Positions 31,708 through 54,459 of a stretch of DNA of 64,000 nucleotides are shown piece by piece. Positions within the stretch are counted from its first letter, which is position 1. Every line of letters starts with the position of its first letter. The translations under genes were made by a program, and so were the position numbers. Under the pieces are notes generated by a model. The model saw nothing but the letters and a program-made list of their open reading frames with translations, did no database searches and was not told the DNA's origin. This DNA is from an uncultured Hungatella sp. (lineage in GTDB: Bacteria; Bacillota; Clostridia; Lachnospirales; Lachnospiraceae), in assembly GCA_949879795.1 (NCBI GenBank), contig CATLBR010000012.1, positions 1 through 64,000 on the forward strand, given 5' to 3'.

Positions 31708-31993
31708 TAAGGTTTCATAAAGAAAAGCGATGAAGGCGTCAGTAGATGTCTGTTTTCTGCCAGAGAGAGGGAATCACCGGCTGCGAGTTCCCTTCAGTTC
31801 AGACAGACGGTCGAAGTTCCCGCCGGAGCCGCGCGGCTGAACAGTGGGAGGATCAGCAGAAGGATCCTTTGACATTTTAGTAAGCTGCGACGTGTTGCGC
31901 GCGTTATGCGCAGAGAGTGCCTGTGTCTGTGACACAGGAATCAGGGTGGTACCGCGGTGATTTCGTCCCTTCGTTTATCGAAGGGATTTTTTT
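31708..31993 (+). promoter_or_regulatory. T-box riboswitch (phenylalanine) upstream of pheS
   Basis: Leader with the T-box sequence AGGGTGGTACCGCG (31943-31956), an AGTA motif at 31741-31744, and a terminator TCCCTTCG/CGAAGGGA (31966-31986) plus seven T. A candidate specifier codon TTC (Phe) sits at 31817-31819, one base after a GAA. That spacing is the same in the thrS leader, where it gives a threonine codon. Uncharged tRNA-Phe should favour the antiterminator. Confidence 0.92.
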
Positions 31994-33175: not shown

Positions 33176-33305
33176 GGCGGGCACCTGGGTATCTGAACCA
33201 CCACCCAGGAGAGAGCTCGCTCGCACCTGGGCGGTGGTTCAGATACCCAGGTATGGGGCGAAAGCCCCCAAGCGAAAAAGGCGAAGCCTTTAGAGCGTGC
33301 CCGCC
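33176..33305 (+). other. Compact four-hairpin structured element between pheS and pheT
   Basis: An outer 9-bp pairing GGCGGGCAC (33176-33184) / GTGCCCGCC (33297-33305) encloses three hairpins: a perfect 20-bp stem (33183-33202 with 33233-33252, continuing after one mismatch with six more pairs), a GGGGC-GAAA-GCCCC tetraloop hairpin (33255-33268), and AAAGGC/GCCTTT (33277-33291). It fills most of the 217-base gap. Outer stem and first hairpin share two bases. No T-run; not a terminator. Confidence 0.75.
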
Positions 33306-38665: not shown

Positions 38666-38896
38666 ATGCTGAAAACTATCTTGACCATCGTGTTCGTTGT
38701 TATATGTATAGCCCTTACCATTATCGTGCTGCTTCAGGAGGGCAAGTCTTCCGGTCTTGGTTCCATCAGCGGTATGGCCGACAGTTACTGGGGCAAGAAC
38801 AAGGCCCGTTCCATGGAAGGCAACCTGGAAAAGTTCACGAAGTTTGCGGCTGCGGCGGTACTGCTGCTGGCGTTGATTTTAAACGTAATCTGGTAA
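38666..38896 (+). CDS. secG: Preprotein translocase subunit SecG
   Basis: 76-aa SecG with two transmembrane helices: the first at about 2-22 and the second at about 54-75, with the conserved VLLQEGKSSGLGSISG loop in between. ATG at 38666 has GGAGGT nine bases upstream; a longer frame upstream includes the ribosome site and is rejected. secG before rnr-smpB-ssrA is a common Firmicutes order. Confidence 0.94.
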   Translation: MLKTILTIVFVVICIALTIIVLLQEGKSSGLGSISGMADSYWGKNKARSMEGNLEKFTKFAAAAVLLLALILNVIW

Positions 38897-39006
38897 GCCT
38901 GCATGCGCCCGGAGACGGACGCGCCGCCGCATACGAAAATCCTGCGGGCGCACTTGGCATCCCTGAATTGATGCCGCCTAATCGGCGGCGGACTTTCGAA
39001 GTAAGG
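38895..39006 (+). repeat. Dispersed structured repeat, copy A (between secG and rnr)
   Basis: One of four related copies in this window. Stem 1: TGCGCCCG (38904-38911) / CGGGCGCA (38945-38952). Hairpin 2: GCCGCC-TAATC-GGCGGC (38973-38989). GAAAATCC (38935-38942) in the loop of stem 1 is nearly complementary to GGACTTTC (38990-38997), allowing a pseudoknot or alternative fold. It begins at the secG stop codon. Confidence 0.8.
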
Positions 39007-39015
39007 AACAACACG

Positions 39016-39041
39016 ACACTCTTGGCAACAAGAGTGTTTTT
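39016..39041 (+). terminator. Intrinsic terminator between secG and rnr
   Basis: Stem ACACTCTTG / CAAGAGTGT (9 bp) with a GCAA loop and a T5 tail, ending only 24 bases before the rnr ATG. It either ends the secG transcript or attenuates rnr; no promoter is apparent between it and rnr. Confidence 0.85.
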
Positions 39042-39064
39042 CGTATCATGGAAAAGAGGAAGAC

Positions 39065-41209
39065 ATGACAGAAGAATTATTAAAACAGAGAAAGGCCATG
39101 CTGGAGGAACTGTTTCACGACAAAGGGTATACTCCCATGAAACTGAAGGAACTGGCTGTGCTGCTGGACATCCCCAAGTCCCAGAGGGAGGAATTGAAGG
39201 AGGTTCTGGATCTTCTCCTGTCAGAGGGGAAGGCCAGCGTGTCCAGGAAGGGCAAATACGGTCTTCCCCAGGAATTTGCCCAGTCAGGGATTTTCTCGGG
39301 CCACCCCAGAGGGTTTGGCTTTGTGACCGTGGAGGGTATGGAGCAGGATATCTTTATTCCCGCGGAGAAAACTGCAGGGGCCATGCATGGGGATAAGGTT
39401 CAGCTGGTGGTGGAAGAGGCCCAGGCAAAGGGGAAGCGGCAGGAGGGAGCCGTGGTAAAGATTCTGCAGCGGGCCAATGAGAACATCATCGGCTACTATC
39501 AGAAGAACAAAAATTTCGGTTTTGTGTTGCCGGACAACCAGAAGCTGACCCAGGACGTTTTTATTCCTCAGGGAAAGGATATGGGGGCTGTCACCGGCCA
39601 CAAGGTGGTGGCAAAGATCACGGATTTCGGAGGACCAAAGAAGAAGCCGGAGGGGGTCGTCACCGAGATCATCGGCCATGTCAACGACCCGGGCACAGAT
39701 ATCCTCTCCATCATCAAGGCCTACGGCCTGCCGGAGGAGTTTCCGCCCCAGGTGATGAGGCAGGCATCCCTGATGCCGGAACAGGTAGATGAGAGGGAGA
39801 CGGCGGGCAGGCTGGATCTGCGCCATCTTCCCACGGTGACCATCGACGGGGAGGATGCCAAAGATCTGGACGACGCCATCACCATCTCCAGGGAAAATGA
39901 GGATCATTACACCCTGGGAGTCCATATCGCGGACGTGACTCACTATGTCCGGGAGGGGAGTCCTCTGGACGAAGAGGCACTGAAAAGAGGGACCAGCGTG
40001 TACCTGGTGGACAGGGTGATTCCCATGCTTCCCCACAGGCTGTCCAACGGCATCTGCTCTCTCAACGCAGGGACGGACCGCCTGGCCCTCAGCTGTATCA
40101 TGGAGATTGACGGCAGGGGAACGGTTCTGGGCCATCAGATCGCGGAGACGGTCATCCGCGTGGACCGGCGCATGACCTACACGGCTGTCAACGCCATTGT
40201 CACGGACAGGGATCATGACACCATGAAAGAGTATGAGGAATTTGTCCCCATGTTCGATCTGATGAAAGAGCTGGCGGATATTCTCAGGGCCAGACGGAGG
40301 CAGCGGGGGTCTATAGATTTTGATTTCCCGGAGAGCAAGATCGTTCTGGACGACAGAGGGAAACCTCTGGAGATCAAGCCCTATGAGCGGAACGCGGCCA
40401 CCAGGATCATCGAGGACTTTATGCTCATGGCCAATGAGACCATCGCCGAGAATTATTTCTGGCAGGAGATGCCTTTCGTTTACCGGACTCACGATTACCC
40501 GGATCCGGAAAAGATGAAAAAGCTGGGCACATTTATCAACAATTTCGGATATACTATCAGAACCCAGAACGGTGAGGTCCACCCCAAGGAGATTCAGAAA
40601 CTTCTGGACAGGATCGAAGGAACGCCTGAGGAGGCTCTCATCAGCCGCCTGACTCTGCGGTCCATGAGGCAGGCCAAGTACGGGACCATCTGCACCGGCC
40701 ACTACGGCCTGGCGGCCAACTACTATACGCATTTTACGTCACCCATCCGCAGATATCCGGATCTGCAGATCCACAGGATCATCAAGGAGAACCTGCGGGA
40801 CGGACTGGGCGAAAAACGGATCGCCCACTACGACAAGATTCTTCCGCAGGTGGCCATCCAGTGTTCTACCATGGAGCGGCGGGCCGACGAGGCGGAGAGG
40901 GAGACCGACAAGCTGAAAAAATGCGAATATATGTCCCGCCGCATAGGAGAGATCTATGAAGGAGCCATCTCCGGTGTTACAACCTGGGGACTTTACGTGG
41001 AACTGCCCAACACGGTGGAAGGGCTTGTGCGGGTCAGCGAGCTGAAGGGCGACTATTTTATTTTTGATGAGGAACACATGGAGATGGTGGGGGAGACTAC
41101 CAACATCAGATACAAGTTGGGTCAGAAGGTCCGAATTATGGTGGCGGGCACCGACAAAATGACCAGAACTATCGATTTTGTGCTGTGTGAGGACCCGCAG
41201 GAAGATTAA
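39065..41209 (+). CDS. rnr: Ribonuclease R
   Basis: 714-aa 3'-5' exoribonuclease. Domains: N-terminal winged helix (about 1-75), two cold-shock OB folds (about 75-230), RNB catalytic domain (about 255-580) with [16 protein letters not shown] (metal-binding Asp), and S1 domain (about 625-705; [33 protein letters not shown]). In bacteria RNase R works with SmpB-tmRNA in removing faulty mRNAs, and the next genes are smpB and ssrA. GAGGAAGA precedes the ATG. Confidence 0.97.
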
Positions 41210-41226
41210 AAAGGGGAAACGAGATT

Positions 41227-41691
41227 ATGGGGAAACAGACAACAAAGCTCATCGCCAACAACAAGAAGGCGTATCATGACTACTTTATTGAGGATAAGTA
41301 CGAGACAGGGATCGAGCTGTTCGGCACAGAGGTTAAGTCCATCCGCATGGGAAAGTGCAGCATCAAGGAATCATTTATCCGCATCGAGAAGGGGGAGGTG
41401 TACGTCTACGGGATGCACATCAACCCCTATGAGAAGGGGAATATTTTCAACAAGGATCCCCTCAGGCCCAGGAAACTTCTGCTTCACAAGTCGGAGATCA
41501 CAAAGCTGGGAGCCAAGATCGCGGAGAAGGGGTATACCCTGGTGCCTCTGCAGGTGTATTTTAAGGGCAGCCTGGTGAAGGTGGAGATCGGGCTGGCCAA
41601 GGGCAAGAAGCTGTATGACAAGAGAGACGACATTGCCAGGAAGGACCAGAAGAGAGAGATCGAGAGGGAGATGAAGCAGTCGCTGCGGTGA
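41227..41691 (+). CDS. smpB: SsrA-binding protein SmpB
   Basis: 154-aa tmRNA partner for ribosome rescue. Motifs [41 protein letters not shown] and a C-terminal tail ([20 protein letters not shown]) that enters the mRNA channel. It starts 17 bases after rnr. The tmRNA gene follows after about 100 bases. Confidence 0.98.
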
Positions 41692-41740
41692 CGGATATAT
41701 GCTTTGACTGTAAAGTAAAAAAATTGTAAAAATTTTGTAT

Positions 41741-41769
41741 TTGACATTCGGTGATAAGTGTAGTAGTAT
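41741..41769 (+). promoter_or_regulatory. Promoter of ssrA
   Basis: TTGACA (41741-41746), 17 bases, TAGTAT (41764-41769), 21 bases before the mature tmRNA 5' end. Confidence 0.8.
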
Positions 41770-41790
41770 ATCCTTACCATATCCAGTAAG

Positions 41791-42127
41791 GGGCCTGTAC
41801 TGGTTTCGACAGGGGTCATGCAGCTGGTGAAGCTATCCGCATGCGATGCGTCAAATGGCAAAATTAAATATAAACGCTGAAGATAATTTAGCATACGCTG
41901 CTTAATTGCAGCCGTCAGCCTTAATGCACTCACACATTAAGAACCTGGCGTCGACTATGTGAGAAACGACATGTGCAAAGCTTTGAGCATGTGGGCGTAT
42001 GATGAAGCTACTGAAACCGCCAGAGCGTCAGTCCCCGGGCGGCGGAGGGAATGTCAATCGGCTGACTATGATAGTAGAAGAACAGGGAATTGATTTTTGG
42101 ACACGGGTTCAAATCCCGTCAGGTCCA
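41791..42127 (+). ncRNA. ssrA: Transfer-messenger RNA
   Basis: The 5' end GGGCCTG (41791-41797) pairs with CAGGTCC (42120-42126), followed by discriminator A; CCA is not encoded. The T-arm is seen in GACACGGGTTCAAATCCCGTC. The tag reading frame at 41858-41905 starts at GCA and encodes AKLNINAEDNLAYAA then TAA, a tag ending AYAA instead of the common ALAA. Standard one-piece form. Confidence 0.95.
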
Positions 42128-42133
42128 CTCGTT

Positions 42134-42191
42134 AAAAACCCTTGGAGACAGAGGATTCTTTGATGAATGCCGTGTTTTCGAGGGTTTTTTT
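42134..42191 (+). terminator. Terminator of ssrA
   Basis: AAAAACCCTTG (from 42134) pairs with CGAGGGTTTTT (ending 42189), followed by more T. The loop is long (about 34 bases) but the stem-T tail geometry fits. Confidence 0.7.
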
Positions 42192-42271
42192 GTGTATAAA
42201 GCAGTCCCCCAAGGGAATATGTTTACCGCAAAAAAGCACAAATATATTGCAAATTAGATGGAGAAGTGATT

Positions 42272-43570
42272 ATGGAAAATAAAATCGCTATACAAGATTT
42301 TGGACCAGTAAAAAAGGCGCAGATAAATTTAAATAAAAATTTTCAGATATTTATAGGTGCTCAGGCTTCTGGCAAAAGTACAATTTGTAAGGTGGTATAT
42401 TTTGTTCAAAAGATAAGAGATTATACTTTAGATTATCTGATGGATGCAGCACAGTTTACACAGAATCATAAAAATGAGTATTTCAATAATTATTTGAAAT
42501 ATTTGACAAAGCAATTTATGGGGTGCTTTGGGAAAACTAAACATATGCAGAAATTTAACATTTCCTATATGTTTGCGGGAAAACATATTAATATTTTCTT
42601 GAACCCTGATGGCTATGTACGATTTTCTATTGATGCTAAATTAAAAGAAGAACTTCTAGGGTTGATAAATGAGGCTTCTGAAATGTTTTTAAATAATTTC
42701 AATACAAAGAGTCTGTTGGATAATATAACTGCTGTGGCGGTAATGAAACGCCATTTAAATGAACGGTTGTTTTTAGTATTTCAAAACAATAATGAAATTA
42801 TTTACATCCCAGCCGGAAGAAGTTTGTTAGCAACCATGTCTGAGCAGTTACAAGATGTTTCTACTGATGAGATGGATTTGACTATGCAGGAATTTATTAA
42901 ACTGATAAAAATAACAAAAAATAAATTTGGAACTAAAATTCCGGAAATGATTAAAGATTATGTAAAAACGATTAAAGGTCAGATAAATAATGCGGCGGTA
43001 GACCAGGCATATGAATTGATTAAGAAAATTCTGAAAGCAGACTATATAAGCGGCAATGATGGTGAAAAAATTTATTTTGATGAGCATCATTGGGTTAAAC
43101 TGATGTATGGTTCGTCGGGTCAGCAGGAAGTATTGTGGATATTGATGCTTGCCTTTGCAACAATTTTGGAAAAGAATAAATCATTTATTATAATTGAAGA
43201 ACCAGAAGCACACTTATTTCCGATTGCACAAAAGGATGTTATGAGTCTTATTTCGTTAATGATAAATTCAACGAATAGTAAGGTTATTATAACAACACAT
43301 AGTCCATATATACTTACTTCTACGAATATATTATTGTATTCGCAAAAAGTCGAAAATCAGCATACAAAGTTGAATAAGGTTGTTATTCCTTCAAATTTAA
43401 GAGTGTCTTATGAAAACTTCGCTGCCTATAAAGTGGACAATTCTGAAAGGGTGTTGGAACCTTTGTTAGATGAGGAAAGTCATATGATTAATACAAATTA
43501 TATTGATGAAGTATCGTCTATTACAAATAGTGAACTTGATGAGCTTATTACCATGGAGATAGATGAATGA
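42272..43570 (+). CDS. AAA/ABC-type ATPase of the OLD/RecF-like superfamily, candidate defence gene
   Basis: 432 aa, AT-rich and unlike neighbouring genes. Walker A at G29-AQASGKST37, ABC-like signature YGSSGQQEVLWIL (about residue 275), Walker B FIIIEEPEAHLF at 305-316 (E309/E310), and the H-switch VIITTHSPYIL. This set marks the AAA_15/AAA_21 ATPases found in anti-phage pairs. The ATG at 42272 (GGAGAAG before it) is preferred over GTG 42266. Coupled by a 4-base overlap to a nuclease-like gene. It lies just 3' of ssrA, a common integration site, but no integrase is present. Confidence 0.8.
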   Translation: MENKIAIQDFGPVKKAQINLNKNFQIFIGAQASGKSTICKVVYFVQKIRDYTLDYLMDAAQFTQNHKNEYFNNYLKYLTKQFMGCFGKTKHMQKFNISYMFAGKHINIFLNPDGYVRFSIDAKLKEELLGLINEASEMFLNNFNTKSLLDNITAVAVMKRHLNERLFLVFQNNNEIIYIPAGRSLLATMSEQLQDVSTDEMDLTMQEFIKLIKITKNKFGTKIPEMIKDYVKTIKGQINNAAVDQAYELIKKILKADYISGNDGEKIYFDEHHWVKLMYGSSGQQEVLWILMLAFATILEKNKSFIIIEEPEAHLFPIAQKDVMSLISLMINSTNSKVIITTHSPYILTSTNILLYSQKVENQHTKLNKVVIPSNLRVSYENFAAYKVDNSERVLEPLLDEESHMINTNYIDEVSSITNSELDELITMEIDE

Positions 43571-44100
43571 TTTGTAGAAAATTAGAAGAATGTATTAATG
43601 GAGAACTGCAAAGGAATTCTTTGCGGAAATGTGATAATAAAAATAGGATGAACTGTATTGAGTCATCGGATAGACGCTCGGCAGTAAAGTGTGAAGAGAA
43701 TAAAAAGAGATATGTATTCGAAAATACGAAAAAAAACCATGTGATTTTATATAAAATGGATGGTGGGATAATAGTGGAAGATAAGTCTGTTCCATTAAAT
43801 ACGAGTAAATGTGATTATGTGTTTATCATTGGTGATGCAACTGCAAGTGTTGTTTTAACAGAACTTAAAGGTGTTAATGTGTCCAAAGCGTTGATTCAGC
43901 TTAAGGGAACTTTATTATTATATAAAAGTGTTTTTTGTAAATTTGGACATGTATTTGCAAGAGCAATAGTGACATCTTCAACACCAAATCTAAAAGCGAG
44001 TCCGGAATATGTTAATTTGGAACGGATGATTCGCAGAGATTATAAAGGAAATATAAAAATTGTTGAGAAACAATTTATTGAAAAGGATATAGAACTATAG
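43567..44100 (+). CDS. Small protein with PD-(D/E)XK nuclease-like pattern, partner of the ATPase
   Basis: 177 aa, no recognised family. Residues D83 (CDYVFII), E99-L-K101 (VLTELKG) and Q111 (ALIQLKGT) fit the D...ExK...Q pattern of PD-(D/E)XK nucleases, on strands of the right spacing. The N-terminal 45 residues are polar and Cys/Arg-rich. It overlaps the ATPase stop (ATGA), implying a two-gene system. Nuclease activity is inference; the fold should be tested by structure prediction. Confidence 0.55.
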   Translation: MICRKLEECINGELQRNSLRKCDNKNRMNCIESSDRRSAVKCEENKKRYVFENTKKNHVILYKMDGGIIVEDKSVPLNTSKCDYVFIIGDATASVVLTELKGVNVSKALIQLKGTLLLYKSVFCKFGHVFARAIVTSSTPNLKASPEYVNLERMIRRDYKGNIKIVEKQFIEKDIEL

Positions 44101-44336
44101 GCCGTTACATACAAATGGACGACTGTTCCAGATCTTTTTTGAGAGAATTGGAGTGATAAAGAACGATGGTTTTGTCGGTCAGTTGATTTATTTTTTAGTT
44201 TTATATGAGAGTCATTCTGGCTGACTTCTATGAAACCATGTTGATTGAGATATTTTCATGAATAAATCCTCTCTATCTGTCATATAATGGCAGTAAACGG
44301 ACAACCGTAATATGATATGATATCAGGAGGGCGAAC

Positions 44337-44591
44337 ATGGAGAGAAGACACAGAAGAACCAAGAGAGAGAAGCTGGAAGACGAACTGACCAGCACAGAGG
44401 CGGCGATCGAGCAGTACCGGGCGGCGATCGCCGCTATGGAAGAGAAACGCCAGTCTCTTCTCGAGGAGATCGAGTCAGAACATATCAAGGAAGTGACAAA
44501 ACTTTTAAAGGAAAAGAATATGTCTGTGAACCAGCTGAAAGATTTGCTGGGGGACATGACAAGCGAAGAGCTGGAGAGGCAGGGCGCATAA
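44337..44591 (+). CDS. Small coiled-coil protein, DUF4315-like
   Basis: 84 aa: a long charged helix (about 5-50; EKLEDELTSTEAAIEQYRAAIAAMEEKRQSLLEEIE) then EHIKEVTKLLKEKNMSVNQLKDLL. The form resembles DUF4315 proteins often found on mobile elements. GGAGG lies seven bases before the ATG. GC content returns to chromosomal level. No function known. Confidence 0.65.
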   Translation: MERRHRRTKREKLEDELTSTEAAIEQYRAAIAAMEEKRQSLLEEIESEHIKEVTKLLKEKNMSVNQLKDLLGDMTSEELERQGA

Positions 44592-44718
44592 GTCCTGCTT
44601 TTTTGACGCAGAATCCAAGACAGCAGGATTTCACAGATATTTCACAAATTCGACAACAAATGAACGCAATTTCTATTTATGCTGATGTAAATACAGATAC
44701 AAGGAGACAGCAGACCAT

Positions 44719-44946
44719 ATGGAACAAGAAGTATTGACATCTGAAGAGACAAGGAGCGAGGAAGAGATCGATTTTGTAAAAGAATTCGAGACAGATATAT
44801 TTCTGAGAACCCAGATCAGTGTTCCAGGAGAAGATTCACCGAACCGCATCCCAAGTTTTGCCCACGGCCACACCGCCTACCAGACCATAGCCGAGGCAGA
44901 CACCCTTTCAAAAAACAAAAGGCCCCAAACCTCCAAAAAAGCCTGA
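44719..44946 (+). CDS. Hypothetical acidic protein
   Basis: 75 aa, strongly acidic at the N-terminus (EVLTSEETRSEEEIDFVKEFE), polar elsewhere, no motif recognised. An AGGAG lies 12 bases before the ATG, rather far. Could be a chance frame. Confidence 0.35.
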   Translation: MEQEVLTSEETRSEEEIDFVKEFETDIFLRTQISVPGEDSPNRIPSFAHGHTAYQTIAEADTLSKNKRPQTSKKA

Positions 44947-44992
44947 CCCCACCAATCCCCTGTACATTCCCTCCCCATAGAATAAAAAATAC

Positions 44993-45021
44993 TAGACTAA
45001 GTCCTTGAGGGAGGGTATAAT
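44993..45021 (+). promoter_or_regulatory. Possible promoter leading into a 24-bp hairpin
   Basis: TAGACT (44993-44998), 17 bases, TATAAT (45016-45021). Transcription from here would give a short hairpin RNA ending at about 45110. Confidence 0.4.
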
Positions 45022-45045
45022 CTTCACGTAAGCAACAAGCAGTGC

Positions 45046-45110
45046 GAAAAAAGGCAGGCAAGAAGTTTCGTCGTGCTCGCACGCAAGAAACTTCTTGCCT
45101 GCCTTTTTTC
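45046..45110. terminator. Perfect 24-bp inverted repeat with A/T tracts at the base
   Basis: Left arm 45046-45069 and right arm 45087-45110 are exact complements, including six A and six T at the base, and the loop has a second CGTGC/GCACG stem. It would act as a strong terminator on either strand. Confidence 0.85.
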
Positions 45111-45114
45111 ATAG

Positions 45115-45491
45115 GGCGCGAGCCCGTGAGCGAGGAGCCGCGAAGCGGATTCGAGCGTAGCACTGCGCCGCCGCGGGAGGCCCAAAAGCCAAGATATTGC
45201 CAGGCCACAAGCCCATGGGCCAAGAAGCCGCCAAGCAGATTGGAGCGTAGCACTGCGCCGCCGCGGGAGGCCCAAAAGCCAAGATATTCCCAGGGCTGCG
45301 ACCCCATGGGCCAAGAAGCCGCCAAGCAGATTGGAGCGTAACACTGTGCCGCCGCGGGTGCGCAAAGTCAATCTATTGCCAGGCCACAAGCCCATGGGCC
45401 AAGAAGCCGCGAAGCAGATTGGAGCGTAGCACTACGCCCCTGCGGGCCCCCAAGTCAATCTATTCCCAAGGCCGCGAGCCCCCGCCGCACT
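45115..45491. repeat. Tandem repeat, four copies of about 90 bp
   Basis: The marker GAGCGTAG (or GAGCGTAA) recurs at 45153, 45243, 45334 and 45422, giving periods of 90, 91 and 88 bases. Units also share CCCATGGGCCAAGAAGCCGC, GCAGATTGGAGCG and CCGCCGCGGG. A partial fifth unit starts near 45480. The period is close to a multiple of three, which opens long meaningless frames on both strands. It sits between the 24-bp hairpin and the next gene. Confidence 0.9.
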
Positions 45492-45528
45492 GTCACACAA
45501 AGAGAGGGAGAAAAAGGAGGATCGAGTA

Positions 45529-46185
45529 ATGGAGGGTAAGAAAAAAGATTTGGTGATGAGAATCGTGCTGGTGGTTGCCGCCAACCTGATACTGGGAGGC
45601 GGAATATCCCTGTTGAGGCTGTCCGGTTTCGGCACAGATCCCTACACCTGTATGAATCTAGGGGTGAGCAGTCATCTGGGTATCGGCCTGGGCCTATACC
45701 AGGTGATATTCAACACCATCCTGTTTATTCCGGTATTCATTCTGGACCGGAAAAGTTTCGGCATAGGGGCGCTGGTCAATATGTTCGGTCTGGGATATTT
45801 CATAGAATTCTATATGTTTCTGCTGGCAGCTGCAGGAATTACCATCGAGGGTCTGGCAGGAAACACAGTGATCCGAATCGCCCTTCTGGTGGCGGGGGTT
45901 CTAGTGGTATGCTTCGGCATAGCCTTGTACATGTTCTGCAACCTGGGGGCTGCTCCCTATGATCGTCTGGGCGTGATCATAGAAACATATTCTCACAAGA
46001 AAATTAAATTTAAGTGGGCCAGAATCGCCATGGATCTCACAAGTATCGCCGTGGGCATTCTGACAGGGAGTGTGATAGGTGTGGGCACGGTGGTGGTGGC
46101 CTTTTTCACCGGACCGATTGTCAGCTTTTTCAGGGAGAAAGCCGTCATTCCCCTGGTGAAAAAACTGGGAATTCAAGAGAAGTAA
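45529..46185 (+). CDS. YczE/YitT-like integral membrane protein
   Basis: 218 aa, about five or six transmembrane helices. LILGGGISLLRLSGFGTDPYTCMNLGVSSHLGIGLGLYQ and the repeat-like ALYMFCNLGAAPYDRLGVIIE match the YczE/YyaS family of unknown function. AGGAGG lies shortly before the ATG. It follows the tandem repeat. Confidence 0.8.
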   Translation: MEGKKKDLVMRIVLVVAANLILGGGISLLRLSGFGTDPYTCMNLGVSSHLGIGLGLYQVIFNTILFIPVFILDRKSFGIGALVNMFGLGYFIEFYMFLLAAAGITIEGLAGNTVIRIALLVAGVLVVCFGIALYMFCNLGAAPYDRLGVIIETYSHKKIKFKWARIAMDLTSIAVGILTGSVIGVGTVVVAFFTGPIVSFFREKAVIPLVKKLGIQEK

Positions 46186-46268
46186 TAATACACAACGCCT
46201 CATACAGGAATTGAGGCCGAAGAAAAACAGATCGGACAAAAACAGGGACAGAAACAGTAAAAAACCGG

Positions 46269-46297
46269 TTGACAGACAGGCTTTTTTGTCTGATAAT
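46269..46297 (+). promoter_or_regulatory. Promoter for ilvE
   Basis: TTGACA (46269-46274), 17 bases, GATAAT (46292-46297). The resulting leader (about 145 bases) contains repeat copy B. Confidence 0.7.
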
Positions 46298-46307
46298 TGT
46301 TCACAGT

Positions 46308-46373
46308 AAACCTGCATGCGCCCGGCTGAGGGCACGCCAGCACCTATGAAACTCTGGCGGGCGCATTGGGCAT
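46308..46373 (+). repeat. Dispersed structured repeat, copy B (truncated, in the ilvE leader)
   Basis: Contains stem 1 only: ATGCGCCCG (46316-46324) / CGGGCGCAT (46358-46366), preceded by AAACCT and followed by TGGGCAT. The second half (GCCGCC hairpin and GGACTTTC) is missing. Confidence 0.75.
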
Positions 46374-46449
46374 AAAAAAGTTACTGACCTGGGGGCTGAC
46401 AGAAGATGCCGGCGCGATAAGGCCGATAGGAAAGGAAGGGCAAAGAGTC

Positions 46450-47517
46450 ATGAAAATCAGAATTGAGAGAACTGCTTGTCCCAAGGAAAAGCCGGGACAG
46501 GACAATCCTCTGGTGTTTGGTACGATTTTTACGGATCACATGTTTGAGATGGACTATGAGGAAGGGAAGGGCTGGTATGACCCCAGAGTCGTGCCGTACC
46601 ACAAGCTGGAGCTGGAGCCGTCATGCATGGTATTCCACTATGGGCAGGAGATGTTTGAGGGTCTGAAGGCCTACAAGTCGGAGGACGGAAGAATCCTTCT
46701 GTTCCGCCCGGACAAGAACTTTCAGCGGGCCAACAGAAGCAACCGGAGACTGTGCATTCCACAGCTTCCTGAAGATCTTTTTATAGAAGGGCTGAAGACG
46801 GTGGTCAGCGTGGACAGAGACTGGATTCCCACAAAGCCGGGAACCTCCCTGTACATCCGCCCCTTTGTCATCGCCACGGATCCGTTCCTGGGGGTGAGAC
46901 CGTCCCACACATACAAGTTTATGATCATCTTGTCTCCGGTGGGAGCTTACTATGCAAGCGGGCTCGATCCGGTGAAGATCTGGATTGAGGACGAGTACGT
47001 GCGTGCAGTCAAGGGCGGTATCGGCGAGGCCAAGACAGGCGGCAACTATGTGGCGTCCCTGGCATCCCAGGTGAAGGCCCACGACGAGGGGTATTCCCAG
47101 GTCCTGTGGCTGGACGGCGTGCATCGGAAGTACATCGAAGAAGTAGGAGCCATGAACATATTCTTCAAGATCAACGGTACTGTGGTGACTCCGGAGCTGA
47201 ACGGAAGCATCCTTCCCGGCGTCACGAGAGATTCTGTCATCGCCCTGTGCAAACAATGGGGAATTCCTGTGGAGGAGAAGAGGATCTCCGTGGACGAGGT
47301 GGTTGCCGCGGCGGAGTCAGGGGCCATGGAAGAGTGCTTTGGAACCGGAACGGCAGCGGTTATCTCTCCTGTGGGAGAGCTTCGCTATGAGGAGGCCCGG
47401 ATGGCGATCGGCGGCGGAAAGATCGGGGAACTGACCCAGAAACTGTATGACACCATCACCGGAATTCAGCTGGGCAAGATAGAAGGTCCAAAAGGCTGGA
47501 GCGTAGAGGTTCAGTAG
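46450..47517 (+). CDS. ilvE: Branched-chain amino acid aminotransferase
   Basis: 355-aa PLP enzyme of fold type IV, transferring amino groups between branched-chain 2-oxoacids and glutamate. Features: MVFHYGQEMFEGLKAYKSEDGRILLFRPDKNFQRANRS, the PLP lysine in GIGEAKTGGNYVAS, EVGAMNIFF, and a C-terminal CFGTGTAAVISPVG. ATG at 46450 preferred because the protein family starts close to MKIRIERT and AGGAAGGG lies before it; the longer frame starts inside the leader repeat. Confidence 0.95.
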   Translation: MKIRIERTACPKEKPGQDNPLVFGTIFTDHMFEMDYEEGKGWYDPRVVPYHKLELEPSCMVFHYGQEMFEGLKAYKSEDGRILLFRPDKNFQRANRSNRRLCIPQLPEDLFIEGLKTVVSVDRDWIPTKPGTSLYIRPFVIATDPFLGVRPSHTYKFMIILSPVGAYYASGLDPVKIWIEDEYVRAVKGGIGEAKTGGNYVASLASQVKAHDEGYSQVLWLDGVHRKYIEEVGAMNIFFKINGTVVTPELNGSILPGVTRDSVIALCKQWGIPVEEKRISVDEVVAAAESGAMEECFGTGTAAVISPVGELRYEEARMAIGGGKIGELTQKLYDTITGIQLGKIEGPKGWSVEVQ

Positions 47518-47518
47518 C

Positions 47519-48439
47519 ATGGCAGGAATAGAAATTGTGCTGATGAAAGCCTTTGCCTTTGTTTTTATCATCGCGCTGGGGTATGGGCTTAAGAGAATAG
47601 GATTTTTCCACGCTCAGGATTTTTACCTGCTATCGAAAATCAATATCAGGATCACCCTTCCTGCAGCGATTATCGCCAATTTCAGCAAGATCAGCATGGA
47701 TATGTCCATGCTGATTATTTGCGTTGTCGGCATTGCCTGCAACGCGGTCACCATGGCGGTGGGGTACCTGATCAGCATCGGGAAGGACCGGGGCGAGAAG
47801 GCCTTTGATATGCTGAACCTGTCAGGATATAATATCGGGAGTTTTACCACACCCTTTGTACAAAATTTTCTGGGACCTGTGGGAGTGGCGGCCACAAGCC
47901 TGTTCGACACCGGGAACGCGGTGATGTGTACAGGGATGAACTTTACGGTGGCCAGCATGGTGAGCGGAGAGGATGAAAAACCGTCCCCCGCGGGGATTCT
48001 GCGCTCCCTGCTGTCATCCCTGCCCTTTGACGTGTATCTGGTGATGACCACCCTCACCATGCTGAGGCTGAGACTTCCCCAGGCGGCAGTGACGGTGGCG
48101 GAGACGATCGGAGGAGCCAACGCCTTTGTGGCCATGCTGATGATCGGGATTGGGTTTGAGATACGGGCGGATAAGGAGAAACTGAAGCTGATGATCAGGA
48201 TCCTGGCGGTCCGGTTCGGTATGGCCGTGTGTCTGGCTCTGGGATTTTATTTCCTGGCGCCCTTTGAGCTGGAGGTGCGTCAGGCCATTGCTATCTGTGT
48301 CATCGGTCCCATCACGTCGGTGTGCCCTGCCTATGTGGGGCGGCTTAAAGGGGATGTGGAGCTGTCCAGTGCCATCAATTCTCTGGCTATCCTCATAGGA
48401 GTGGTGACTACCACGGTGGCGCTGGTGATCATGCTGTGA
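47519..48439 (+). CDS. AEC-family (auxin efflux carrier) transporter
   Basis: 306-aa membrane protein with ten helices in two halves. Family segments: AFVFIIALGYGLKRIGFF, INIRITLPAAIIANFSK and the C-terminal AIAICVIGPITSVCPAYVGRLKGDVELSSAINSLAILIGV. Starts one base after the ilvE stop codon, so probably co-translated; a role in exporting or importing related organic acids is inference. Confidence 0.9.
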   Translation: MAGIEIVLMKAFAFVFIIALGYGLKRIGFFHAQDFYLLSKINIRITLPAAIIANFSKISMDMSMLIICVVGIACNAVTMAVGYLISIGKDRGEKAFDMLNLSGYNIGSFTTPFVQNFLGPVGVAATSLFDTGNAVMCTGMNFTVASMVSGEDEKPSPAGILRSLLSSLPFDVYLVMTTLTMLRLRLPQAAVTVAETIGGANAFVAMLMIGIGFEIRADKEKLKLMIRILAVRFGMAVCLALGFYFLAPFELEVRQAIAICVIGPITSVCPAYVGRLKGDVELSSAINSLAILIGVVTTTVALVIML

Positions 48440-48539
48440 GACAGGCGGAAAATTTTTTTGTCCTGCTCAGGCCGGACAGGAGGCATGGAGCGTTCATCCG
48501 GTTTTCGCCGCCCCCTGAACTGCAATGGGGAATTGAGGC

Positions 48540-48567
48540 TTGACAAAACAGGAAGCAATGATATAAT
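48540..48567 (+). promoter_or_regulatory. Promoter for the thrS T-box transcript
   Basis: TTGACA (48540-48545), 16 bases, TATAAT (48562-48567). Confidence 0.85.
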
Positions 48568-48573
48568 CAAAAA

Positions 48574-48817
48574 AGAAATGCAAAGCGTTGACGGGGAAAG
48601 TAGGTTACCAGGGGCCGTTCAGAGAGAGATGGGAAGGTGTGAGCATCTTACGGAGCAGGTATCGGAAAACCACCCCTAAGCGGTCCTTAATCGGACACGG
48701 TGATTCCGTTATCGTCACAAAAAGAGGTCGGAGTATCCATAGGAGCTCCGGCAAAAAGGGTGGAACCGCGATAATTGATCGTCCCTTCTCACAGGAAACT
48801 GTGGGGAGGGGTTTTTT
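48574..48817 (+). promoter_or_regulatory. T-box riboswitch (threonine) upstream of thrS
   Basis: T-box AGGGTGGAACCGCG (48757-48770), AGTA at 48599-48602, and a 12-bp terminator (48783-48794 with 48799-48810, GAAA loop) followed by six T. A candidate specifier ACC (Thr) at 48669-48671 sits one base after GAA, as in the pheS leader. It matches the downstream gene. Confidence 0.9.
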
Positions 48818-48840
48818 CTTTCCCCACAGCGGATTTTCCT

Positions 48841-48948
48841 AAACCTTTATGCGCCCGGCTGCGGACGCACCACCACACATGAAAGTCCGGCGGGCGCATT
48901 TGGCATCCCTGAATGCATGCCGCCTATTCGGCGGCGGACTTTCAAAGT
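48841..48948 (+). repeat. Dispersed structured repeat, copy C (in the thrS leader)
   Basis: Best-formed copy. Stem 1: ATGCGCCCG (48849-48857) / CGGGCGCAT (48891-48899). Hairpin 2: GCCGCC-TATTC-GGCGGC (48919-48935). GAAAGTCC (48881-48888) is a perfect complement of GGACTTTC (48936-48943). Lies between the T-box terminator and the thrS start. Confidence 0.85.
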
Positions 48949-48972
48949 AAATACATGTAAAGGAGAGTTGTC

Positions 48973-50901
48973 ATGAAAATAACATTGAAAGACGGAAGCG
49001 CAAAAGAGTACGCCGCTCCCATGTCGGTGATCGACATTGCGGCGGACATCAGCTCCGGGCTGGCCAGGATGGCCTGCGGCGGAGAGATCGACGGGGAGAG
49101 CGTGGACTTGAGAACCATGGTGGACAGAGACTGCCAGCTGAATATTCTGACAGCGAAGGATGAAAAGGGGCTGGCTGCCCTGCGCCACACGGCCAGCCAC
49201 GTCATGGCCCAGGCGGTAAAGAGACTGTATCCGGACGCCAAGCTGGCCATCGGTCCGTCCATCGCCGACGGTTTTTACTACGATATCGATTTTTCATCCC
49301 CTATCACCGCGGAAGATACAGAGAAGATCGAGGCGGAGATGAAGAAGATCATCAAGGAGGCTCTGCCTCTGGAGCGCTTTACTCTGCCCAGAGAAGAGGC
49401 TCTGACTCTCATGAGAGAGAAGGAGGAGCCATACAAAGTGGAATTGATCCAGGATCTGCCGGAAGGGGAGGAGATCAGTTTCTACAGACAGGGAGAATTT
49501 ACAGACCTGTGCGCCGGCCCGCACCTGATGAACACCAAGGATGTGGGGAAGGCCTATAAGCTCACCAGCATTGCGGGAGCCTACTGGAGAGGAAACGAGC
49601 ACAATAAGATGCTGACCCGTATCTACGCCACGGCATTTGCCAAGAAGGAGGAGCTGGAGGCTTACATCACCATGATGGAGGAGGCTAAAAAGCGGGACCA
49701 CCGGAAACTGGGACGGGAGCTGGGCCTGTTCATGATGCACGACGCCGGGCCGGGATTCCCCTTCTTCCTGCCCAAGGGCATGGTGCTGAAAAATACCCTT
49801 CTGGACTACTGGCGGGAGATTCACAAGAAGGCGGGCTATGTGGAGATATCCACTCCTGTGATCTTGAACAGAAGCCTGTGGGAGACCTCCGGACATTGGG
49901 ACCATTACAAAAATAACATGTACACCACTGTGATTGACGAGCAGGATTATGCCATCAAACCTATGAACTGCCCCGGCGGCGTGCTGGTGTATGCCTCCGA
50001 GCCCCGCTCTTACAGAGATCTTCCTCTGCGCATGGGAGAGATCGGACTGGTTCACCGCCACGAGAAATCCGGCCAGCTTCACGGCCTCATGAGAGTCAGG
50101 TGTTTTAACCAGGACGACGCGCATATTTTCATGACTCCGGAGCAGATCAAGGAAGAGATCATGGGGGTTGCCAGACTGATCAATGAGGTCTACACTCTGT
50201 TTGGATTTAAATACCATGTAGAACTGTCCACAAGGCCCGAGGACAGCATGGGAAGCGACGAGGACTGGGAGATGGCCACAGACGGACTGAGAAGCGCTCT
50301 GGACGAGCTGGGGCTGGACTATGTGGTCAACGAGGGAGACGGCGCGTTCTACGGTCCCAAGATCGACTTCCATCTGGTGGACGCCATCGGGAGAACGTGG
50401 CAGTGCGGCACCATCCAGCTTGATTTCCAGCTTCCCCAGCGGTTTGAACTGGAATATCAGGGCGCGGACGGGGAGAAGCATCGCCCCATCATGATCCACA
50501 GAGTGGCTTTCGGCTCCATCGAGAGGTTTATCGGCATCCTCATCGAGCATTTTGCAGGCGCGTTCCCCACATGGCTGGCCCCGGTTCAGGTGAAGATCCT
50601 GCCCATCTCCGACAAGTTTATCGATTACGCGGACAGCGTGAGGAGACAGCTGGACGACGCGGGGATCCGGGTGGAACTGGATACTCGCTCCGAGAAGATC
50701 GGCTACAAGATCCGCGAGGCTCAGATGCAGAAGATCCCCTACATGCTCATCGTGGGACAGAAAGAGCAGGATGAAGGCGTGGTGGCCGTGCGAAGCAGAT
50801 TCGCTGGGGATGAGGGCCAGAGATCTCTGGACGAGTTTATAAAGTCAGTAAAAGAGGAGATCGATTCCAGAGCTGCACGCGAGGTAAATAAAGACTTATG
50901 A
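48973..50901 (+). CDS. thrS: Threonyl-tRNA synthetase
   Basis: 642-aa class II synthetase. Domains: TGS (about 1-62), editing domain (about 65-215; HTASHVMAQAVKRLYPDAKLAIGPSIADGFYYDID), catalytic core (about 240-535; motif 2 RMGEIGLVHRHEKSGQLHGLMRVRCFNQDDAHIF and the zinc-binding Cys in MNCPGG) and anticodon-binding domain (about 540-640; APVQVKILPISDKFIDYADSVRRQL). Translation initiates behind AAAGGAG. Confidence 0.98.
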   Translation: MKITLKDGSAKEYAAPMSVIDIAADISSGLARMACGGEIDGESVDLRTMVDRDCQLNILTAKDEKGLAALRHTASHVMAQAVKRLYPDAKLAIGPSIADGFYYDIDFSSPITAEDTEKIEAEMKKIIKEALPLERFTLPREEALTLMREKEEPYKVELIQDLPEGEEISFYRQGEFTDLCAGPHLMNTKDVGKAYKLTSIAGAYWRGNEHNKMLTRIYATAFAKKEELEAYITMMEEAKKRDHRKLGRELGLFMMHDAGPGFPFFLPKGMVLKNTLLDYWREIHKKAGYVEISTPVILNRSLWETSGHWDHYKNNMYTTVIDEQDYAIKPMNCPGGVLVYASEPRSYRDLPLRMGEIGLVHRHEKSGQLHGLMRVRCFNQDDAHIFMTPEQIKEEIMGVARLINEVYTLFGFKYHVELSTRPEDSMGSDEDWEMATDGLRSALDELGLDYVVNEGDGAFYGPKIDFHLVDAIGRTWQCGTIQLDFQLPQRFELEYQGADGEKHRPIMIHRVAFGSIERFIGILIEHFAGAFPTWLAPVQVKILPISDKFIDYADSVRRQLDDAGIRVELDTRSEKIGYKIREAQMQKIPYMLIVGQKEQDEGVVAVRSRFAGDEGQRSLDEFIKSVKEEIDSRAAREVNKDL

Positions 50902-51746
50902 AAAAAAGATATTTGATTATGGCGGCGGCGGTGCTGGCCTCAGCCCTGCTGCAGGCATTTACCATGAACATGTTTCTGGAACCTGTGGGATTGCTGCCCA
51001 GCGGCTTTACGGGCATCGCCAGCCTGCTGTCCAGAATCACCGGACTGGTGGGGATCCATTTCTCCACCTCCGTGGGCATGGTGGTCTTAAATATTCCCGT
51101 GGCCTTGTTCTGTTACCGGCAGATCGGGAAAAAATTTGTCATGTTTTCCATGGTTCAGGTGCTGCTGTCCAGTATCTTTCTCGAGGTGATCAAGGCGGAA
51201 CCGCTGTTTGACGATGTGCTGCTGAATATCTGTTTCGGCGGTTTCCTCTACGGTCTGGCCATCGCCATCGCCCTGAAGGGCAACGCTTCCACGGCGGGGA
51301 TGGATTTTATCGCCCTGTATGTGTCCAACCGTCTGGGGAAATCTATCTGGCAGTATGTGTTTATCTTCAACTGCGGCCTGCTGTGTGTGTTCGGGGCCAT
51401 GTTCGGATGGGAAAACGCGGGATATTCTATCTTGTTCCAGTTTATCGCCACCAGGACCATTGACACCTTCTATCACCGGTTTAAGCGGGTGACTCTGCAG
51501 ATCACTACGGTGAAACCGGAGGAAGTGGTGAAAGAGTATATCAGTTTCTGCAAGCACGGCATGTCGGTGGTGGAAGGGTACGGAGGGTACAGTAAAAAAG
51601 CCGTCAGTCTTCTGCACACGGTGGTATCTACTTACGAGGTACAGGACATCATCTTCCACCTGCGGCAGGTGGATCCGGGGATTATCATCAATGTGATGCC
51701 CACGGAGACATTTATCGGTTCGTTTTACCAGAAGCCTCTGGAGTAA
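50898..51746 (+). CDS. YitT-family membrane protein
   Basis: 282 aa. Five or six transmembrane helices (about residues 5-180, DUF161) with FLEPVGLLPSGFTGIASLLSRITG and ALKGNASTAGMDFIALYVSNRLGKS, then a soluble C-terminal DUF2179 domain (about 200-280; KPEEVVKEYISFCKHGMSVVEGYGGYSKKAV). Its ATG overlaps the thrS stop by 4 bases (ATGA), so it is translationally coupled to thrS. Function of the family is not established. Confidence 0.88.
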   Translation: MKKRYLIMAAAVLASALLQAFTMNMFLEPVGLLPSGFTGIASLLSRITGLVGIHFSTSVGMVVLNIPVALFCYRQIGKKFVMFSMVQVLLSSIFLEVIKAEPLFDDVLLNICFGGFLYGLAIAIALKGNASTAGMDFIALYVSNRLGKSIWQYVFIFNCGLLCVFGAMFGWENAGYSILFQFIATRTIDTFYHRFKRVTLQITTVKPEEVVKEYISFCKHGMSVVEGYGGYSKKAVSLLHTVVSTYEVQDIIFHLRQVDPGIIINVMPTETFIGSFYQKPLE

Positions 51747-51819
51747 GCCCAGAAGCGGGCTGCTTTGGATCGGGATACAGGGGGGTGAAGGTGTCTTTTT
51801 GGAAGGAACGGAGGAAGTG

Positions 51820-52254
51820 ATGGAGTATATATTGGTCAGCGCCTGTCTCCTGGGGCTGAGCTGCCGGTATGACGGCAAGAAGAAAGCAGACGAGAGAGTG
51901 AAGAAACTGCTGGAGAGGGAGGATATCGCCCTGATCCCCATGTGTCCGGAACAGCTGGGCGGCATGACAACTCCCAGGGAGCCGTCGGAGAGGACAGCAG
52001 GAGGCGTGAGAAACAGAGAGGGAGAGGATGTGACATCCTGTTACAGGAGAGGCGCCGAGGAGGCGCTTAAGCTGGCCCGGCTGTACCACTGCAGCAGGGC
52101 CGTGCTGAAAGAGCGTAGTCCCTCCTGTGGCTGCGGGCAGATCTATGACGGCAGCTTTACAAAAACCCTTACGGAGGGGGACGGAGTGACTGCGGAGCTT
52201 TTAAAAAGAAGCGGGATTCAGGTTCTGGGAGAGAGCAGGGCAGAGGAGATATAG
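51820..52254 (+). CDS. DUF523-family protein
   Basis: 144 aa with family signature YILVSACLLGLSCRYDGK and C-terminal KERSPSCGCGQIYDGSF, with three conserved cysteines (SPSCGCGxIYDG). The ATG at 51820 has GGAGGAAG shortly upstream; an in-frame TTG at 51799 precedes this site and is unlikely. The last 54 bases overlap, on the opposite strand, a truncated AAA-ATPase-like gene. Confidence 0.87.
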   Translation: MEYILVSACLLGLSCRYDGKKKADERVKKLLEREDIALIPMCPEQLGGMTTPREPSERTAGGVRNREGEDVTSCYRRGAEEALKLARLYHCSRAVLKERSPSCGCGQIYDGSFTKTLTEGDGVTAELLKRSGIQVLGESRAEEI

Positions 52255-53043
52255 GGGCAGGCCGTCCAGGATATAGCCGTCGTACCACTTCTGAATTTGT
52301 ATAAAATCAATCTGTTCTCTTGCACAGAGCGAGAGCACCTCGCCTTCTGTAAAGCCGAAGAATTGAGAAAGTCCCGCCGGGGCAAGCATGGAGTACTCAT
52401 CAAATATATTGATGGCAGAGTGCTCCCCATATTTCTTGATGGGCAGGATGCCTGTCATGTAGGCCAGTTCCACATACTCGGCCCCCTTAAAAAGCCCTCT
52501 GAGGAAATCCAGATACTCTTTCTGAATATCTCTGCGTTCCTTTGCCACCCGGAATACACAGTCCCATTCGTCTATGATAAAGATAAAGCTCTGTTCGGTT
52601 CGGGCATAGATCTGCCTCAAGACTCCGGGAAGACCATATTGATCCACATGAAAACAATCTCCAAAGTCCGGCGTCAATTCATCAATTACCATCTCCTGAA
52701 GTTTATGGATAAAAATATCAAGATGTGATTCATTAAACAAAAACTGCTGCATATCCAGCCGGATCACATGGTGCCGGTTAAGGTGGCTTTGAAAGGATGG
52801 ATCCTTCTCAATCACCAGCCCGTCAAACAGCTGCCCGGACTGACATCCTCTGCTGTAGTAGGCTGTCAGCATGTCCGCCGCCATGGATTTACCGAAACGG
52901 CGGGGGCGGCTGACACACAGGTTCTTCTGTAGGGTGTCCAGCACCTGGTTGGTGTAGGAGATAAGCCCGCTTTTGTCTACATATATTTTTGAATTTCTCG
53001 CCTGTCTGAAGGAGGTGTTTCCTGGATTCACATAAATGCCCAT
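52201..53043 (-). pseudogene. Truncated AAA-ATPase-like protein (missing C-terminal nuclease-like half)
   Basis: 280-aa frame whose N-terminal 265 residues match the AAA-ATPase-like family (PF09820): FRQARNSKIYVDKSGLISYTNQ, Walker A VSRPRRFGKSM (about 45-55), Walker B FIFIIDEWDCVFR. Family members run to about 500-570 aa with a C-terminal PD-(D/E)XK (DUF1703) domain. Here the frame reaches IQKWYDGY and then passes into sequence antisense to the DUF523 gene and stops. The 3' half has evidently been lost. AAGGAG precedes the ATG. Confidence 0.8.
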
Positions 53044-53233
53044 AGATTCTCCTTAATTTAAAGTCGGATTCCCGTTGCTTGATGAATGCCTGCCGTGTCT
53101 TCTTCTGCTTTTATAGTTGATCGGTTGGATGTAAAAGCAGGATTTTGGTATAGAAAAAATAAGAATCTTCACAGACGCAGCATGAGCTGTCGGATCAGCC
53201 TCGGAGTTTTTTAAACCCAGGCCTCAGAAATCG

Positions 53234-53342
53234 TTGCTATGGAAGTCCGCCGCCGAATAGGCAGCATAAATTCAGATATGCCCTATGCACCCGCCAACTT
53301 TCGTACGTGGTGATATGTTCGTAGCCGGGCGCATGAAGGTTT
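53234..53342 (-). repeat. Dispersed structured repeat, copy D (reverse orientation)
   Basis: Read on the minus strand it carries AAACCTTCATGCGCCCGGCT, stem 1 ATGCGCCCG/CGGGTGCAT, hairpin 2 GCTGCC-TATTC-GGCGGC, then GGACTTCC. Changes from copies A and C keep G-T pairs in both stems. It lies between the truncated AAA-ATPase-like gene and the first flagellin. Confidence 0.8.
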
Positions 53343-53537: not shown

Positions 53538-53604
53538 AGTAAACAGTGACAGATAGAAACAAATTGCAGATATTGCGACGTGACAATGGAAGGTGGTTGC
53601 GGAT

Positions 53605-54459
53605 ATGATTATACAGCACAATATACCAGGTATCAATGCCTCGAGGAATAAGGGGATCACAGAGGGCAAGATGAAGAAGTCCCTGGAAAAGCTCTCTTCC
53701 GGCTACCGTATCAACCGTGCGGGGGACGACGCGGCGGGGCTGGCCATCTCGGAGCTGATGAGAAACCAGATCCGTGGATTGGATCAGGCTATGAGGAATA
53801 CAAACGACGGTATAGGACTGACTCAGACAGGAGACGGGGCTCTGGCTGAGGTTCATGCCATGCTGGAGAGGATGAAGACGCTGGCGATTCAGTCTGCCAA
53901 CGGAACATATGACACAGTAGCCCGGGCGAATCTGGATGCCGAGCGGGCTCAGCTTTTGGAGGAGATCGACAGGATCGGTGTGACCACAAATTTTGACGAG
54001 ATCACTCTTTTCGACGGCGGTGACCCGCCGTTAGGCTTTACTCCCCCGGAACTTTCGGGAGAGGATCCGGACATTACTCTTCAGATCGGCCATACCAAGG
54101 AGGAGATTCTTGATGTGCCCCGCTACTATATGAGCACAAAGGGATTGGCCCTGCAGGATGTGAATATTACAACATTGCCACAGGCCAATGATTCGGTGAA
54201 GATGATTGACGATGCCATCGAGGCGGTCGCCGATATTCGGGCAGGCTTCGGAGCGTCTCAGAACCATCTGGAACACACTTACCAGAACCTGAGTGTTACC
54301 TCCGAGAATATGACCAGTGCGGAGAGTCGTATCAGGGATACGGATATGGCAGATGAGATCACATCATTCACCAAGGACAACATCATGTATCAGGCAGGAA
54401 ACTCCATGTGTGCTCAGGCCAATTCTATTCCGGAGCAGATTCTCAGCCTTCTCCAATAG
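53605..54459 (+). CDS. Flagellin, divergent first copy
   Basis: 284-aa filament subunit. The conserved N-terminal D0/D1 (about 1-135; LEKLSSGYRINRAGDDAAGLAISE) and C-terminal (about 200-284; SAESRIRDTDMADEITSFTKDNIMYQAG) regions flank a short central segment with FDGGDPPLGFTPPELSGEDPD. Unusual points: a Cys near the C-terminus (SMCAQANSIP) and Pro/Asp-rich centre. ATG at 53605 (MIIQHN) chosen over an upstream in-frame GTG. It may be a minor filament component. Confidence 0.93.
   Translation: MIIQHNIPGINASRNKGITEGKMKKSLEKLSSGYRINRAGDDAAGLAISELMRNQIRGLDQAMRNTNDGIGLTQTGDGALAEVHAMLERMKTLAIQSANGTYDTVARANLDAERAQLLEEIDRIGVTTNFDEITLFDGGDPPLGFTPPELSGEDPDITLQIGHTKEEILDVPRYYMSTKGLALQDVNITTLPQANDSVKMIDDAIEAVADIRAGFGASQNHLEHTYQNLSVTSENMTSAESRIRDTDMADEITSFTKDNIMYQAGNSMCAQANSIPEQILSLLQ

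Follow-up and report, generated by a model that had tools for sequence, protein, structure and literature searches.

The 64,000-nucleotide stretch analysed here (the window; positions 1 to 64,000 of contig CATLBR010000012.1, from the 2.63 Mb, 65% complete genome of an uncultured Hungatella sp.) carries a dispersed intergenic repeat of about 110 bp, and the question that this locus raises is whether the repeat is an RNA element or a piece of mobile DNA. An earlier note on this DNA had described four copies and had left both readings open. The four copies are indeed found where it placed them, by sequence comparison, by BLASTN and by a covariance model, and all the parts that it listed are present: the AA-CCT start, the TGCGCCCG/CGGGCGCA stem with GAAAGTCC in its loop, the GCCGCC-TANTC-GGCGGC hairpin and the GGACTTTC end. 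The analysis shows that the repeat is a real, widespread small mobile element, which is absent from Rfam: the element has no hits when the whole window is searched at the gathering threshold, nor when the regions of copies B and C are searched at a permissive threshold. The element is also not described in the titles and abstract openings covered by a literature search.

Empty sites, element ends and insertion target

The mobility of the repeat is seen from the sites that lack it in related genomes. An rnr match was obtained in 24 relatives, and in 17 of them the site upstream of this gene is empty, the end of secG (CTGGTAA or CTGGTAG) running straight into a common CACTCTTGG hairpin; six of the others were read in an unsuitable orientation, and the last one is without a visible secG end. 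Copy A, in the window, begins exactly after ...CTGGTAA and ends in GTAA before the CACTCTTGG hairpin. At the aminotransferase gene, where copy B begins after TTCACAGTAA, the repeat is absent in all 12 relatives read by eye, 11 of which keep a TTGACA/-10 promoter pair. The flanks at thrS are too poorly alignable to read an empty site. Young copies provide the same information from the side of the insertion: in Candidatus Limivivens intestinipullorum, three copies (96.6-98.3% alike) have nothing but GTAA in common in their left flanks, and all end in CTTTCAGAGTAA, one of them preceding a tandem copy and one preceding a contig end. Taken together, the empty sites and these young copies define the element as ACC...CANAGTAA, about 108 bp long and inserted 3' of GTAA.

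The ends were examined further in a set of 234 deduplicated copies, obtained by a one-pass profile search, in which both ends could be placed by rule in 124; 81 of these are not preceded by another copy or a remnant, and 67 are clean on both sides; stricter rules leave 62 and 52. Among the 67 copies GTAA is present on both sides in 23, only on the right in 25, only on the left in 3 and on neither side in 16, and the difference between the right-only and left-only classes shows that the right GTAA belongs to the element. The left-flank consensus of the 81 copies is YTTYAaAGTAA, which resembles the right end of the element, CTTTCANAGTAA, but is weaker; the upstream part of this target preference, TTTCANA, is weaker than GTAA. 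A constant target duplication was looked for in the copies that are clean on both sides and was not found.

Clearly, the repeat is a gene-less mobile DNA element of about 108 bp, which inserts directly 3' of GTAA and carries its own GTAA as right tip. The suggestion of a small mobile element, similar to a miniature inverted-repeat transposable element (MITE) or to a repetitive extragenic palindrome (REP), thus holds as regards mobility, in view of the empty sites, the dispersed and tandem copies, the fixed ends, the target motif and the patchy distribution. It does not hold as regards a classical MITE, there being no terminal inverted repeats and no consistent target duplication.

Distribution, arrays and genomic context

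With copy C as the BLASTN query, 45 matches are found in its own genome, in which the covariance model gives 42 hits at E up to 0.01. The earlier note had proposed a search of related genomes as well, and matches occur in 8 of 61 relatives, all eight of the same genus, and in none of the 35 relatives of other genera. Within the family, 12 of 250 sampled genomes, the own genome included, have hits at E up to 1e-4. The model has hits in 24 of the 26 genomes that were scanned with it, and more than 40 hits in 13, which is not to be read as a frequency, since 16 of the 26 had been picked for having a pattern match. The highest counts are at least 143 in genome G061, a lower bound because all 143 scored candidates were copies, and 122, 116, 103 and 102 in genomes G065, G011, G064 and G010, respectively. 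A pattern scan of genome contigs finds at least 115 stretches, with titles naming Lachnospiraceae, Hungatella, Hespellia, Robinsoniella and similar; there are no matches to the element in phages, plasmids and viral contigs.

The element also forms head-to-tail arrays with a period near 109, which is explained by the resemblance of the target to the right end of the element itself (TTTCANAGTAA). Of the 25 tandem pairs 23 are comparable, and at least four of these 23 have a lower similarity than the average dispersed pair in the genome concerned, which points to separate insertions; others are nearly identical and point to local duplication. A short tandem variant (L105 1-215), with a period of ~74, has a 3-nt stem-1 loop and the right tip GTAAGTCTATAGTAA. 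Partial copies are seen as well, the 45 BLAST matches of the own genome including five left-only, eight right-only and one internal. Internal deletions in which the left end is joined to the right hairpin at CTGCA(T) occur at two loci of the own genome (L062 and L068) and also at L134.

Three of the copies in the window are full (107-108 bp) and one is truncated at its 3' end, with limits set from the empty sites and from the comparison between copies. At E up to 1 the covariance model matches the 64 kb at these four places and nowhere else, with E values of 2.7e-30 for copy C, 5e-27 for copy A, 8.3e-25 for copy D and 5e-12 for the half copy B; its alignment of 78 copies (out of 109 selected) includes A (L018) and D (L028), which therefore match by construction, and excludes B and C. 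Copy A (108 bp, 38897..39004, + strand) lies between secG and rnr, as identified by the Pfam domains SecG and RNB, and the GTAA preceding it (38893-38896) overlaps the secG stop codon. Copy B (46310..46373, + strand), which follows GTAA at 46306-46309, has lost its 3' third and with it the right hairpin and the right tip. It adjoins a gene for a class IV aminotransferase (Pfam), and upstream of it is the promoter-like TTGACA-N17-GATAAT (46269..46297, + strand; recognised by eye), with 12 bases between its -10 box (46292-46297) and the copy. Copy C (108 bp, 48843..48950, + strand) lies between a T-box leader and thrS (Pfam) and follows CTAA at 48839-48842. Copy D (107 bp, 53340-53234, - strand), which follows GCAA at 53344-53341, lies upstream of a flagellin gene, in antisense orientation to it, with the flagellin domains at 53593-54456 (Pfam).

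The proposal that the copies lie on the sense strand of the adjoining transcripts is borne out as no more than a tendency: in 100 of 169 copies the element and its downstream gene have the same orientation, and the two neighbouring genes have, relative to the element, the orientations (+,+) in 76, (-,-) in 42, (+,-) in 27 and (-,+) in 24. By a crude open reading frame (ORF) call, 18 of 176 copies with enough flank overlap a long ORF, and some copies lie within operons, for example among purine-like genes, as judged by eye (L361). Copy numbers above 100 are reached in some gut Lachnospiraceae, and the element sits at promoters, in 5' untranslated regions (UTRs) and inside operons. A preference for one replication strand was considered and set aside: the G-rich strand holds 117 of 177 arrays, but non-coding AGTAA is likewise skewed to this strand (102 of 169).

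Other structured sequences were seen in the window. The region 45040-45446 has a long perfect hairpin followed by four ~90-bp tandem repeats, and 45040-45165 matches the Clostridiales-1 RNA (RF01699) with 35.5 of 48 bits (E 1.1e-5), which is below the gathering score. A 34-bp inverted repeat, 91% complementary and with 2 bases between its arms, is at 33183-33252, T-box leaders are at 31721-31973 and 48579-48789, and a tmRNA gene is at 41791-42130.

Conserved pairing, the search for an enzyme and possible mechanisms

There are hairpins near both tips of the element, and their parts are well seen in copy C. Stem 1 (48849..48899) is formed by ATGCGCCCG (48849-48857) with CGGGCGCAT (48891-48899), and its loop carries ATGAAAGTCC (48879..48888), a putative left guide which is complementary to the right-tip GGACTTTC(A) and to the TTTCA of typical targets. 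The near-invariant CTGAAT (48909..48914), a putative right guide, precedes the right hairpin GCCGCC-TATTC-GGCGGC (48919..48935), and its TGAA pairs in the folds with TTCA (48941-48944) across this hairpin. The right tip GGACTTTCAAAGTAA, with the terminal GTAA, is at 48936..48950, as defined by the end logos and by the young copies of another genome.

When RNAalifold is applied to the alignment only one 5-bp helix is returned, and the named structures were then counted pair by pair. The seven outer pairs of stem 1 are paired in 92.3% of cells and those of the right hairpin in 97.6%, with double changes in stem 1 and the right hairpin in 8 cells, compared with 1.9 in shuffles. Pairing between the motif in the stem-1 loop and the right tip is kept in 87.1% of cells, and its covariation is modest. 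This is the complementarity of GAAAGTCC and GGACTTTC from which a pseudoknot or a switch between two folds had been proposed; it does not single out the pseudoknot, as guide-like roles fit equally well. Opposite the invariant G of CTGAAT, 87 of 124 copies have C, 36 have T and one has A, which favours a folded sense strand. Copy C folds more stably than its shuffles (z -2.63 as RNA and -3.77 as DNA), and this is less clear for copies A and D (RNA z -1.34 and -1.75). The G-T pairs of copy D had been taken as a sign of selection on structure, and this idea fails on the 78 aligned copies, in which G-T and A-C are found in 11 and 14 cells, respectively, of the six core pairs of stem 1, in 13 and 51 cells of all ten pairs of this stem, and in 3 and 7 cells of the right hairpin.

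Several enzyme families were compared with the presence of the element. Of the eight carriers within the genus four have a match to Y1 transposases, as have six of the 18 non-carriers, the latter being defined by BLASTN, with only G007 and G022 confirmed by the covariance model. Y2 (PF04986) is found in 3 of 16 carriers (one below the cut-off, one partial) and 3 of 9 non-carriers, and an IS110-type enzyme (PF02371) in 4 of 9 non-carriers and in 9 of 16 carriers, where some of the matches are broken or partial. The RAYT model is over its cut-off in none of 42 genomes; the best case is a RAYT-like gene of 259 aa in G067 (L266 1093-1869, minus strand; 73.4 bits against a cut-off of 80), a genome with 66 model hits but no element copy in the 3.3 kb of this locus. 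Most of these genomes are drafts, so that the absence of any one enzyme is a weak argument; with Y1, RAYT, Y2 and IS110 each missing from many carriers, none of them can be named as the mobiliser. Element copies occur in the 71 transposase loci at L197 (two), at L296 and, weakly, at L276, the IS200 of L197 having other ends (the IS200 elements compared end in TTTAGTT).

The genes next to the copies were also compared, 1063 ORFs from 186 loci being clustered. The largest cluster (19 loci) and the next (8 loci) were rejected as mobilisers, being at median distances of 1669 and 3816 bp, respectively, from the copies and not transposase-like by eye; another cluster (5 loci) has a median distance of 0. 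As for an autonomous version of the element, a single candidate pair of halves, 930 bp apart (L121), was found and was rejected, its left half being degenerate and the ORF between the halves resembling what we take to be a housekeeping protein. By eye, 17 stretches around dense copies have housekeeping-like genes and no common transposase.

The most likely explanation, at about even odds and by analogy with known systems, is that the element is a non-autonomous one which is moved by single-strand transposition, with an HUH-type (IS200/IS605-like) nuclease acting in trans. Such a nuclease would fold one strand of the element, cut it after the GTAA of the left flank and after the GTAA of the right tip, and paste the single-stranded element behind the GTAA of a target strand. 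The left guide might be TGAAAGT, in the loop of stem 1, and the right guide CTGAAT, before the right hairpin, both motifs being complementary to TTTCA. The right tip would itself be a good target, such that new copies could land beside old ones and build head-to-tail arrays, and copies would decay after landing. That this is a novel transposition system, in which a 108-nt gene-less element has internal motifs pairing with the target and with its own right tip, builds arrays by self-targeting and uses an enzyme outside the Y1, RAYT, Y2 and IS110 families, is a more tentative proposal. The clean ends, the defined target and the young copies make it testable what moves a high-copy, gene-less element with no matching transposase in sight.

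Several observations weigh against the single-strand mechanism. The left flank and the right tip agree at position -3 in 36 of 52 copies (29.1 expected from permutation within genomes) and, weakly, at position -6 in 33 of 52 (28.9 expected), an agreement which is not predicted by a plain model without duplication and is not fully explained; without grouping by genome the agreement at -6 is larger (37 of 62, with 19.9 expected), and part of it is therefore lineage-specific target choice. Only 75% of cells keep the two inner pairs of stem 1, and the preponderance of A-C over G-T in the ten pairs of this stem conflicts with a fold of the sense strand. The target preference spans 11 nt and is longer than the tetranucleotide of IS608-type systems, the short variant of L105 keeps CTGAAT but has a different right tip, and Y1_Tnp is unmatched in 10 of 24 carriers, including G061 with its at least 143 copies.

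Some of these same observations would also be accounted for by a site-specific recombinase, or another enzyme, recognising a TTTCANAGTAA half-site on double-stranded DNA and joining a circle to the target, with the hairpins serving as binding sites or in another role. The 11-nt target preference resembles the right end, the agreement at -3 and -6 is what a heteroduplex overlap might leave, and none of the four tested enzyme families is present in all carriers; on the other hand, the stems are kept with double changes across lineages, which is unneeded for recognition of double-stranded DNA, and we consider this explanation rather unlikely, if the closest of the rivals. Less probable still is a REP-like passenger of RAYT (TnpA-REP) or of a resident IS200/IS605, the known enzyme having since been lost from many lineages. 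This is in agreement with the high copy number, the extragenic location, the combination of a hairpin with a short motif, the nearness of GTAA to GTAG, the RAYT-like gene of G067 and the Y1 matches in 14 of 24 carriers, but the RAYT matches other than that of G067 are at 23-39 bits, Y1 is matched in non-carriers as well as in carriers, and the ends of the IS200 elements compared are different.

A cis-acting RNA element, for example a 5' UTR regulator or a switch, which has spread by duplication and is kept for its fold, is very improbable, in spite of the strong folds of copies C, A and D, the sense orientation of copies A-C to their adjoining genes and the complementarity of loop and tail. 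As G-T is not in excess over A-C in the stems, there is no support for an RNA which selection keeps in place, and the copies have both orientations to genes, form arrays, are missing at orthologous genes of relatives and are found in few, scattered carrier genomes. Searches for RNA motifs can be misled by the element. Equally hard to credit is a short retroelement, of which a reverse transcriptase makes copies from RNA with target priming, since, for all the short, structured, high-copy nature of the element and a 3' end similar to the target, the truncations are not clearly 5'-biased and, of the 51 clean copies with GTAA on at least one side, 28 differ between left flank and right tip.

Comparison with known systems

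The classes of small repeats and passengers provide further points of reference. RU/ERIC elements are 127 bp long (PMC2759123). In its size, intergenic location and high copy number the element is like these and like classical MITEs, from which it differs in the properties of its ends. RUP is a small intergenic repeat of a similar kind. The Clostridiales-1 RNA (RF01699) is repetitive in nature and, like the element, is a structured sequence family of related bacteria, but the copy C region does not match it even at E up to 10. The carriers do not consistently have the enzyme that would be expected for a passenger of IS110 or of an IS91-type (Y2) transposon.

REPs are 20-50 nt long, with GTAG before one hairpin, and an HUH protein is presumed to mobilise them in trans (PMC8266576). 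The element is similar in being a high-copy extragenic hairpin element, and it is different in its length of ~108 nt, its two hairpins, the GTAA at its right tip and left target, where REPs have GTAG/GTGG directly 5' of a single hairpin, and the restriction of a RAYT-like gene to a single carrier among 24.

IS608 inserts 3' of TTAC, has TCAA as its right cleavage site (CR) and uses the guides AAAG and GAAT (PMC5934647). The element is like IS200/IS605 members in its insertion, without duplication, 3' of a fixed tetranucleotide which is kept in the left flank, in having a tetranucleotide at the right tip, in its subterminal hairpins without terminal inverted repeats and in its GAAT-like putative guide before the right hairpin. 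Complementary motifs which may pair with the left and right cleavage sites are present, and the L105 variant departs from this pattern. It is unlike them in that a Y1 transposase with matching ends is not found across the carriers, in that both cleavage motifs would be GTAA, in that the target preference extends upstream, and in that the element is only 108 bp long and has no gene. Failing a defining feature of each of these systems, the element is therefore not assigned as a member of either, but it works like a passenger of the IS200/IS605 or REP type.

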